In this document: one piece after another, positions 8,009 through 44,089 of the stretch
Position numbering within the stretch: position 1 is the stretch's first letter
Layout: every line of letters starts with the position of its first letter
Source: a virus
Length of the DNA stretch: 44,089 nucleotides
Strand: one strand, 5' to 3'
IMG/VR virus record: IMGVR_UViG_3300022821_000035
Coordinates: 1-44,089 of that record
Notes under the pieces: generated by a model
Seen by the model: only the letters and a program-made list of their open reading frames with translations
What the model was told of the DNA's origin: nothing
Database searches by the model: none
Position numbers and translations under genes: made by a program

Positions 8009-8608
8009 ATGTTAATGTATAAGAAAAAAGTTGTTGAGGAAAAACCAAGACTGGAAATTAGTTATGATGAAATGGTTGAAAGTCCAAGAGATTGGAGTAA
8101 TTTGGGGTATTTTATAACTTGTGATGGTAATTATTCTAGTCCAGATAATGTTTTTGAGGGAGAATTGAGAGATTGGATAAAAGAAACTGGTCAAGAAGTT
8201 GCAAGTCAAGATGAACACATCAAAGTAATTAAAGATTGGTTTAAATTAAATACTGATGAAAAAGTTTTAGAAATATACCCGATAACAAAATATGAACATT
8301 CGGGGGTTTCTTATAGTTTGGGCGATAAATTCGGGTTTGATTATTCTAACAATGGTTTTTATATAATAACCGATAAAACTCAAAAAGAAGTTGGAACTGA
8401 TAAAAAAGATTTTGAAAAAGTTATTGGAAGTGAGTTAGAAATTTATAATAAATATTGTAATGGAGAAATTTATAGATTTTATTTGCACGATAAAGACGGA
8501 GAAGAAGAGGATAGTTGTTGCGGTTTTTACGAAGTTGAAGATATTAGGGAATGTTTGCCTAAAGAATTTAAAGATGAGGATTTAATGGACTATTTTGTTT
8601 ATAATTAA
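8009..8608 (+). CDS. Conserved phage/plasmid orphan protein (PRDWSNLG...YEHSG family)
   Basis: A 199-residue protein of a very widespread but uncharacterised family of phages and plasmids. Family marks visible here are SPRDWSNLG near the N-terminus, an IYPITKYEHSGVSYS block, GFYIITDK, a middle YNKYCNGEIYRFYL, and the end DSCCGFYEVEDIRECL. A second ATG lies at 8015. The start follows the leader ATGCCAAG with no Shine-Dalgarno. It is the first gene after P2. Function unknown; a host-takeover or anti-defence role is possible but unproved. Confidence 0.75.
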   Translation: MLMYKKKVVEEKPRLEISYDEMVESPRDWSNLGYFITCDGNYSSPDNVFEGELRDWIKETGQEVASQDEHIKVIKDWFKLNTDEKVLEIYPITKYEHSGVSYSLGDKFGFDYSNNGFYIITDKTQKEVGTDKKDFEKVIGSELEIYNKYCNGEIYRFYLHDKDGEEEDSCCGFYEVEDIRECLPKEFKDEDLMDYFVYN

Positions 8609-8617
8609 ATTAAAGTA

Positions 8618-8827
8618 ATGGAAAAAAGAACACCAAAAACAAGAGAAGAGGCAACTCAATATGCTATTGATTGGCAATATTGGGCAAGTGAACAAAATCC
8701 TATTGGAGCGAAAGCAGATAAATGCAAGTTATATCAAATCGATATGATAGTATGGCAAGGAATTTTTGAAGAATTAGCTGATAAATTTGATTTAAATGAA
8801 GAGTTTAGAGAAAATGGAATAATTTGA
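8618..8827 (+). CDS. Conserved small phage protein ending in REFRENGI-like motif
   Basis: A 69-residue protein of a family often seen beside the previous one in phage accessory regions. Marks are TREEATQYAIDWQYWASEQ at the start, a central MIVWQGIFEELADKF helix and the end EEFRENGI. It is all-helical, soluble and acidic. It lies 9 bases after the P2 gene, so it is in the same transcript, which ends at the terminator just downstream. Role unknown. Confidence 0.7.
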   Translation: MEKRTPKTREEATQYAIDWQYWASEQNPIGAKADKCKLYQIDMIVWQGIFEELADKFDLNEEFRENGII

Positions 8828-10359: not shown

Positions 10360-10376
10360 TTTAAAGAACTACAAAC

Positions 10377-10408
10377 AAACAAGGAACTAAAAAGCCTTGT
10401 TTTATTTT
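10377..10408 (+). terminator. Intrinsic terminator
   Basis: An 8-bp stem (AAACAAGG / CCTTGTTT) with a 10-base loop and a TTATTTT tail, 18 bases after the stop of the zinc-ribbon gene. Confidence 0.8.
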
Positions 10409-11171
10409 GGGCGGTAAATGTCAATTGAGATAGTTTAATAGTTATTATTAGTAAGTAAATAGTTGTAATGGTTATTTTTAATTAATGTAAATGTTTGTTT
10501 TAGTTGTTTGTTATTGGTTTTGATAGTTGTTTTTTTGTTTATTGGTTGTTTGCTAGTGGTTTACTGACCCTTAAATGGTTGGTTTATTGAGTAATATTGG
10601 GGCGGAAAGGTCTCAAAACAAGGCTTTTTAGTGAAATTATAAAAAAGGGAATTGACAAAAGATAGGTTATAGCGGTAGAATACAGGGACTAAGCCCTTGT
10701 TACCCTTAACACTAGCAAGTAGTAGGCAATAGCCCAGTAGTAGCCAGCACCAAGCCACTACTACCACACCCACCACCACACACCACCACCAACATAAGCG
10801 GGCTAAGGCTGAAACCCCCACCCCTATACACACACACACCAACACACCCATCTAGCAAGAGCCAAGCTTTTATCTAAGGTAAGGGCATAAGGACACTAAA
10901 CAAAAAGTTACCACCACGACAATACCGAACGACCCCCCGCCCCCCTTCCTGGAAAAGAGTTACTTGTCCCCTCACCCCAAAAACTACCTCTAAAAAGCCA
11001 AAAAACGACTATCCACCTAAAATTTTTCTATATTATTAAAAGGGAAAAAATATAAGAGGTTTTGTCAGAGAAGTTAAAAAATTCCTCAAAAAATCACCGA
11101 GAGATTTTTCAAAAAAGAGGATACCTTAGGGAAATAAAAAAATTAGAAATATTACCATATAATTATCAAGT
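10409..11171. other. Large non-coding region with strand-composition switch (candidate packaging/replication or leader region)
   Basis: About 760 bases with no credible gene. The left part (10441-10560) is T/G-rich on the plus strand, with one C and about 26 G by count. The part from about 10690 to 10945 is C/A-rich, with runs such as CACCACC, CACACACA and poly-C; C outnumbers G more than four to one at 10741-10860. The switch lies near the promoter at 10652. Two direct GTAGTAG repeats (10719, 10737) and an inverted CTACTAC (10758-10764) can pair in alternative hairpins. Position just upstream of the terminase genes fits a cos or pac site or an unstructured late leader. A 96-codon minus-strand frame here is low-complexity and not believed. 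Confidence 0.6.
10652..10681 (+). promoter_or_regulatory. Probable late promoter for packaging and structural genes
   Basis: TTGACA at 10652-10657, 18-bp spacer, TAGAAT at 10676-10681. It is the last clear promoter before the terminase genes and would give a leader of about 480 nt containing the C/A-rich stretch. Confidence 0.6.
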
Positions 11172-39366: not shown

Positions 39367-39395
39367 TTGACAATGATTGGGTAATAGTTTAAGCT
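39367..39395 (+). promoter_or_regulatory. Promoter P5, for tRNA-Trp and replication/nucleotide genes
   Basis: TTGACA at 39367-39372, 17-bp spacer, TAAGCT at 39390-39395. The spacer part GGGTAATAGTT resembles those of P2-P4. About 80 nt separate the expected start from the tRNA; that leader shows no gene. Confidence 0.7.
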
Positions 39396-39484
39396 GTATT
39401 TATGTTATGTTGGTTTCGACGAATGTATCAGTAGAACCCTTTGTTGCTCCCTTGCTATTTAGTTCTGGGGTATCGGGGTTTGAT

Positions 39485-39556
39485 GCGGAAGTAGTATAAT
39501 GGCTAATACTGGGGTCTCCAAAGCCTTAAATATGGGTTCGATTCCTATCTTCCGTG
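39485..39556 (+). tRNA. tRNA-Trp (anticodon CCA)
   Basis: A 72-nt cloverleaf: acceptor GCGGAAG / CTTCCGT, D-stem GTAT / ATAC with an AATGGCTA loop, anticodon arm GGGGT-CTCCAAA-GCCTT (anticodon CCA at 39518-39520), 4-base variable loop, T-arm ATGGG-TTCGATT-CCTAT, discriminator G at 39556. No encoded CCA follows. The anticodon stem has three G-U pairs and is weak. Since it reads only UGG, it is not a suppressor. It is the only tRNA I can find in the window. Confidence 0.92.
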
Positions 39557-39589
39557 CGAACAAAAAGAACTAAACTTAATAAGAATATT

Positions 39590-43369: not shown

Positions 43370-43547
43370 AGAGATAACTATTTGGTCAGCGGACAGTATT
43401 CCCTACAAAGAATATAAAGTTTCTACTTATTTGAGAGTTATGAAAGTTCAAGAATTTGTCGAGAAGGTTCAGAAGAAGCATAAGATAGTTGGGATTACTT
43501 TCGAGGATAACTTATTAGGATTTATACTAGATGAGAAAAAGATATAA
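43356..43547 (+). CDS. Unknown small beta protein
   Basis: A 63-residue protein with alternating strands and a short helix (EITIWSADSIPYKEYKVSTYLRVMKVQEFVEKVQ) and a hydrophobic C-terminus (IVGITFEDNLLGFIL). Its start lies inside the HAD gene and its end overlaps the next gene. No family is recognised; a HIT/HAD partner is only a guess from position. Confidence 0.45.
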   Translation: MAKNKEITIWSADSIPYKEYKVSTYLRVMKVQEFVEKVQKKHKIVGITFEDNLLGFILDEKKI

Positions 43548-43689
43548 AGAAAAGAAGCGGTCATGTGCGTTATGTAAGCCTCATAAAAGAACTTGGTCTA
43601 AACGTTGGACTCTAAAAGACATGATTACTTTAGAGGAATTTGAGCACCTAAAGAAACAAAGTATTGACAATAATAAGGTTACAGATTAA
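43531..43689 (+). CDS. 52-residue basic CxxC protein
   Basis: ATG at 43531, TAA at 43687-43689. The N-terminus is basic with a single zinc-like knuckle, SCALCKPHKRTWSKRW, followed by an acidic helix (MITLEEFEHLKKQ). CALCKPHK-type small proteins are common in phages. The promoter P6 lies entirely within the 3' end of this gene, its -10 box covering the stop codon. Confidence 0.55.
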   Translation: MRKRYKEKKRSCALCKPHKRTWSKRWTLKDMITLEEFEHLKKQSIDNNKVTD

Positions 43690-43692
43690 GAT
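43664..43692 (+). promoter_or_regulatory. Promoter P6, upstream of the candidate RNA gene
   Basis: TTGACA at 43664-43669, 17-bp spacer whose first half (ATAATAAGG) is identical to that of P3, TAAGAT at 43687-43692. No gene begins within 340 bases downstream, so this promoter points to the non-coding stretch. Confidence 0.78.
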
Positions 43693-43697
43693 GTAAA

Positions 43698-44012
43698 TAC
43701 GTTGTTATTTTGATTCTAAGGGTGGCTGAATAAGTCGCTATACAGGACTAAGGTATTTTTTTTTACTGAAACCTCGAAAGGGTTAGTAGGACTGGTGAGG
43801 GCTACTGCTGAGCTAGGTTTAAAAGTTGCGTGACCATATCAAGCATTGAACTATCACTTCAAAAGAGCTGATTACTACTGTAGAGGTCACACGTCTTGGA
43901 GAATGACAAGGTTTATTTGCTGGAAGGTCGTAATACTCTGATTTGGGGGAAGCCCTAATGAAAGACATGACCAAATGGCGGTAGGCTTTGGTTATCTCCC
44001 CCTTAGAATTAA
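43698..44012 (+). ncRNA. Candidate structured non-coding RNA, unknown class
   Basis: A stretch of more than 300 bases between the TAA at 43689 and the ATG at 44033 has no credible frame and a promoter (P6) at its head. Several local pairings are visible: AACC/GGTT (43770-43784), AGTAG/CTACT (43785-43806), GTGACC/GGTCAC (43830-43835 with 43885-43890), TTGAA/TTCAA inside that arm, GGGGGA/TCCCCC (43945-43950 with 43997-44002), then AGCC/GGCT, and a competing ATTTGG/CCAAAT. A 9-T run lies early in the stretch. It does not show tmRNA, RNase P, group I or group II intron marks. It may also be an extended leader of the gene at 44033. Confidence 0.5.
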
Positions 44013-44032
44013 GATAATAATTAAAAGAAATA

Positions 44033-44089
44033 ATGTCTGAAGAAATAAAATTAGGAAAAACAGTAGTTTGCGATATTTGTAATAAAGAT
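44033..44089 (+). CDS. Start of a CxxC protein, 3' partial
   Basis: ATG at 44033, open to the window end. The visible 19 codons include VVCDICNKD, a first zinc knuckle. The stretch upstream is the candidate structured RNA, so this gene may be controlled by it. Too short to classify. Confidence 0.45.
   Translation, partial: MSEEIKLGKTVVCDICNKD

Follow-up and report, generated by a model that had tools for sequence, protein, structure and literature searches.

What lies between the predicted start of a phage promoter and a start codon 334 nt away, when other promoters of the same family stand close to their genes? The question is raised by the end of a tailed-phage contig with terminase, portal and head genes, an IMG/VR virus record of 44,089 nt whose full length was analysed and is called the window here. 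Nearly all genes of this contig are on the plus strand. The closest relatives found share 76-78% terminase identity, and two separate queries found no relative in a scan of 84,980 genomes of bacteria and archaea. The first-pass annotation had proposed a new structured RNA or a switch-like leader of the CxxC gene at 44033. This remains the best frame, as the stretch is non-coding, promoter-driven, structured on one strand and without an Rfam counterpart, whereas the switch depends on a competing pairing that has no support in the predicted ensemble. The stretch is best read as a separate structured RNA with which the predicted transcript of the 44033 gene begins, and which may be either excised or a cis-acting leader. 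The features discussed are listed in Table 1.

Table 1. Positions of the features in the window and in related contigs (L002, L004, L039).
Feature	Position or length	Strand	Description
Window	44,089 nt		IMG/VR virus record of a tailed phage
Upstream ORF	43531-43689	+	52 aa, CxxC (RSCALCKPHK)
Sigma70-type phage-family promoter	43664-43692	+	TTGACA (43664)-17-TAAGAT (43687-43692)
Predicted structured RNA domain	43699-44023	+	No coding frame
P1, 5' strand	43701-43722	+	GTTGTTATTTTGATTCTAAGGG
Middle segment	43723-43897	+	One likely helix, remainder uncertain
3' arm	43898-43999	+	102-nt imperfect hairpin adjoining P1
P1, 3' strand	44000-44021	+	CCCTTAGAATTAAGATAATAAT; ends 11 nt ahead of ATG 44033
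Downstream gene	44033-44089	+	Begins MSEEIKLGKTVVCDICNKD...; cut by contig end; codon score 0.47
tRNA-Trp	39485-39557		Sole ARAGORN match and sole Rfam match in the window
G001 (L002) leader	545 nt		After HIT gene; whole-leader z -6.0
G002 (L004) leader	689 nt		After HIT gene; holds a short reading frame, about 30 codons
G007 (L039) leader	290 nt to endonuclease gene		Non-coding sequence resumes beyond the gene
Shared non-coding stretch	L002 8490-8835; L004 10217-10592; L039 4797-5224		Upstream of a small gene
CGACCGACCGACGGA/GAGGGAGGGAG pairing	L002 8624-8638 with ~8756-8775; L004 10341-10358 with ~10484-10502		Predicted

Promoter and coding potential

The site at 43664 fits the TTGACAATAAT...TAtaaT series found at 3112, 7953, 8876, 9448 and further positions, which confirms the family promoter of the first-pass annotation. 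The TAA of the upstream ORF does sit inside the -10, which matches at four of six positions. With the start set at 35 bases past the first base of the -35, transcription is predicted to begin at about 43699. Promoters 7953, 8876 and 9448 have exactly 21 nt between predicted start and ATG, and other family promoters in this phage and its relatives have 20-42 nt, compared to 334 nt for the 43664 promoter. Neither a terminator-like site nor a second promoter was found on the plus strand between the RNA domain and the 44033 gene.

The genes at 8009, 8932 and 9504, with family promoters and 21-nt leaders, have a common upstream box, TTAAAANGCCAA(A/G)ATG. Elsewhere in the window, a family promoter is located about 120 bases upstream of the tRNA-Trp gene with a leader between them (39367-39557), and a long stretch without plus-strand genes precedes the small terminase gene (10360-11171). 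It contains a perfect 18-bp inverted repeat (10386-10403/10615-10632) as well as a promoter-like site (10652) placed 485 nt ahead of the ATG, a distance similar to the 489 nt seen in a relative.

No part of the sequence from the predicted start up to the 44033 ATG is coding. The plus strand of 43690-44032 has no ORF of at least 40 aa, as had been noted before, and with codon scores trained on the genes of the window phage its frames reach 0.05, 0.00 and 0.01, compared to 0.2-0.5 in neighbouring genes. The minus frames have negative scores, including an 89-aa open frame (-0.16) for which Pfam and PHROG gave no match. Coding on either strand was ruled out by the ORF list, the codon scores and the Pfam and PHROG searches.

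A closing helix at the predicted transcript start

The most conspicuous element of the stretch is a helix, P1, that the first-pass list of pairings had omitted. P1 begins 2 nt past the predicted transcription start and consists of 22 uninterrupted pairs, 18 Watson-Crick and four G.U. The exceptions to Watson-Crick pairing are all G.U on the plus strand and would be A.C on the opposite strand. The 21 outer pairs have pair probabilities of 0.86-1.00, and the innermost pair is in competition with a neighbouring hairpin. Among stems with a span of at most 400 nt, P1 is the longest in the window on either strand, followed by stems of 18-19 pairs, and the maximum in 12 simulated windows was 18 compared to 22 for P1. 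The duplex formed by the 5' and 3' 45 nt has an energy of -30.5 kcal/mol, with a shuffle mean of -10.6 (sd 2.9) and none of 2,000 shuffles as good.

The whole domain folds on the plus strand at -101.4 kcal/mol (z -4.35, 0 of 200 shuffles), compared to a z of -1.36 on the minus strand; its folding energies are -101.4 versus -63.7 kcal/mol. The inner interval 43718-44010, which lacks P1, reaches a z of just -2.25, and the stronger signal is due to starting the fold at the predicted transcript start, which brings in P1. The 3' arm folds at -35.9 kcal/mol on the plus strand (z -4.13, 0 of 200 shuffles; minus strand z -1.01). The middle segment has a z of +1.0, and 171 of 200 shuffles fold as well; therefore, its predicted helices are without support. 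The most credible of these is GTGACC/GGTCAC (43830-43835/43885-43890), which is likely within the full fold (p 0.96). The structure signal of the domain is thus carried by P1 and the adjoining arm; it is real, strand-specific and moderate in size. The earlier view of a structured stretch holds for these parts and for the domain as a whole, and fails for the middle segment, so that "at least five paired segments" was an overstatement. The GGGGGA/TCCCCC terminal arm and the competing ATTTGG/CCAAAT pairing, both proposed at that stage, have pair probabilities of 0.0, and forcing either costs about 11-12 kcal/mol.

Searches for known classes and homologues

The statement that the stretch matches no known RNA class was upheld by an Rfam 15 search at the gathering score. 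At E-values up to 10 on 490 nt, just three chance-level fragments were returned, and the stretch was unmatched by families including RNase P, tmRNA, group I and II introns, 6S, SRP, GOLLD, ROOL and OLE. ARAGORN found no tRNA or tmRNA in it. Mutually exclusive pairings combined with an intrinsic terminator or a sequestered start region, as in a riboswitch or attenuator, were likewise missing, with no terminator-like site and zero probability for the proposed alternative pairings.

No homologue of the RNA was found by blastn in phages and plasmids, or in viral-contig scans via the neighbouring proteins, terminase, RNase H and a DNA pattern. A direct search of 15 related records gave matches of 13-28 nt alone, and Smith-Waterman alignments with shuffles against the counterpart stretches of relatives stayed at chance level. 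A single-sequence covariance model of 43823-43999, R1, run over 365 kb of contigs from related and other phages, found itself alone. Blastn, the related-record search and the covariance model likewise gave no homologues across which an aptamer could be compared. In these searches, the RNA is an orphan. A relative of the upstream 52-aa protein, in L063, was rejected as a lead, as the phage that carries it is unrelated and differs in the region downstream.

Counterpart stretches in related phages

Three relatives have a family-type promoter and, behind it, a long leader in the interval that follows the HIT gene. The non-coding stretches common to L002, L004 and L039 have z values of -3.1, -6.2 and -4.7, and share a hairpin, ACGAAG...CTCTTTGT, in which 6 of 25 pairs show both-sided changes that keep the pair. 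Its layout is ACGAAG, a stem and loop with TCACC, and CTCTTTGT, with no Rfam match. L061, a fourth contig, has a gap of 513 nt (z -3.5) directly ahead of the small gene that precedes its RNase H gene. The counterpart stretches of the relatives lie a short way upstream of genes for RNase H and SNF2 helicase, and their downstream genes are not alike.

These stretches resemble the window RNA in their position after the HIT gene and upstream of a small gene, in promoter type and in being structured. They differ in sequence and model: a search of the window for the ACGAAG...CTCTTTGT motif was negative, and blastn, Smith-Waterman and the covariance model revealed no resemblance of the window RNA to them. 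Since the contig stops 57 bases into the 44033 gene, before the following gene block, the positional match is putative, and the window RNA may occupy the same place as the RNA of the relatives or may precede a further such RNA. A P1-like closing helix as a feature of all relatives was considered and dropped after a shuffle test of the terminal pairing (window, 0 of 2,000; one relative weak, 57 of 2,000; three other relatives, none). The stretch of L002, L004 and L039 is arguably a better candidate for a non-coding RNA family than the window RNA.

Further observations concern the relatives only. A CGTTGAG loop occurs in L002 and L004 on wholly different stems, and the predicted CGACCGACCGACGGA/GAGGGAGGGAG pairing of both contigs alternates C-G pairs with repeated tandem G.A mismatches. 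Between promoter and RNA, L002 (8345-8420) and L004 (9925-9998) each have a pair of overlapping stems, arranged A-B-A'-B', and then 7-8 T, with entirely different sequences; they are like a pseudoknot or a terminator/antiterminator. In L039, an endonuclease VII/HNH-like gene is inserted in the non-coding interval (4278-4812), flanked by near-copies of the first 13 bases of the RNA, ACGAAGACCAATT and ACGAAGATCAATT.

Interpretation

We tentatively prefer the reading, to which we give slightly less than an even chance, that 43699-44023 is a self-contained structured phage RNA that is released by an RNase III-type enzyme and constitutes the main product. We infer that a transcript is produced from the 43664 promoter; the promoter match, the non-coding character, P1, the arm and the strand bias are computed. 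Transcription would start at about 43699 and, because no terminator intervenes, run on into the 44033 gene. The first nucleotides would pair with the last ones in P1, closing the domain and hiding the 5' terminus, which the duplex of roughly two turns may protect. A host RNase III-type enzyme could then cut P1 and so separate a stable non-coding RNA from the rest of the mRNA; this RNA, rather than control of the 44033 gene, would be the main product. Release of a discrete RNA appears the most likely outcome because RNase III could plausibly act on a helix of about two turns.

This reading is favoured by the length of P1, its position at the start and its G.U-only exceptions on the plus strand, by the difference in z between the strands, and by the distance to the ATG compared to that before ordinary genes. 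A GC content of 0.43 in the domain, compared to 0.37 in the contig, and the 290-690-nt leaders of relatives with the same promoter type and z values of -3.1 to -6.2 also speak for it. It is weakened by being based on a single sequence without homologue and hence without covariation, by a middle half that folds like shuffles, by terminal pairing that is weak in one relative and absent in three, and by the imperfect -10.

Since the RNA and the gene have no terminator between them, a plain leader would be equally simple, and a cis-acting 5' leader whose domain stabilizes or regulates the mRNA of the 44033 gene is the nearest rival, possible but somewhat doubtful. Structured 5' leaders with 5'-terminal stabilizing stems are known from bacterial mRNAs of the ompA type. 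As in these, the window helix begins right at the 5' terminus, and a start codon follows the RNA directly; in contrast to their local hairpins, the partner strand of P1 is about 280 nt away, and there is no homology. P1 would loop out a 320-nt domain and place the start codon about 11 nt from the 5'-end helix, mimicking the short leaders of other genes of the phage. The end of P1 11 nt from the ATG, the plus strand free of terminator and second promoter ahead of the gene, the leaders of about 21 nt of ordinary family-promoter genes and the Shine-Dalgarno-like motifs in just 7 of the 57 phage genes agree with this. However, 334 nt is long for a plain stabilizing leader, no expression platform such as a terminator or sequestered ribosome site is visible, the competing pairing is unsupported, and relatives have different downstream genes.

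A remnant non-coding stretch, in which a promoter, accidental folding and a young inverted repeat (P1) coincide without selected structure, would explain the chance-level middle segment and the lack of conservation in any collection searched. We consider it quite unlikely, as P1 is very improbable in the simulations and its position agrees with both the predicted start and the boundary of the gene, every non-Watson-Crick pair in it is G.U when read on the transcribed strand, and the 3' arm gives a second signal. Even less probable, to the point of being remote, is a replication-associated transcript that, like RNA II of plasmids, acts as an origin primer, here in the neighbourhood of genes for a nuclease, RNase H and an SNF2 helicase. 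A promoter together with a structured RNA, and the position of the relatives' counterparts shortly before the RNase H and SNF2 helicase genes, would suit such a primer; yet GC skew has no inflection at the stretch, the region lacks direct repeats and iterons, and the RNase H/helicase region is absent from the window.

For the phage group as a whole, it is conceivable, if rather unlikely, that the interval from the HIT gene to the RNase H/SNF2 block retains a promoter-driven long structured RNA of fast-turnover sequence. Phages whose terminases are about 77% alike would then carry RNAs that do not align, and these would make up a new class of phage RNA with the P1-closed form as one version.

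Relation to large phage RNAs

Closest in kind to the preferred discrete RNA are large phage-encoded RNAs such as GOLLD and ROOL, with no further tested feature in common. These are ornate RNAs of unknown function, and many GOLLD members exceed 800 nt (PMC12286853). Like them, the window RNA is phage-encoded, non-coding and structured, and its genome also has a tRNA gene. It differs in size, at about 320 nt, and matches neither in Rfam at E-values up to 10; a multi-pseudoknot architecture is not established for it, and the tRNA gene is about 4 kb away rather than adjacent.

If transcribed, the stretch would give a roughly 320-nt phage RNA whose closing helix is measurable and unusual and which has no Rfam 15 relative, and would offer a concrete target for asking what role large phage RNAs have. 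If it is just a leader, it would show how a phage with very short, mostly Shine-Dalgarno-less leaders accommodates one of 334 nt. Taken with the unrelated stretches of the relatives, the finding, if true, would point to a genome position that keeps large RNAs while their sequence is replaced.
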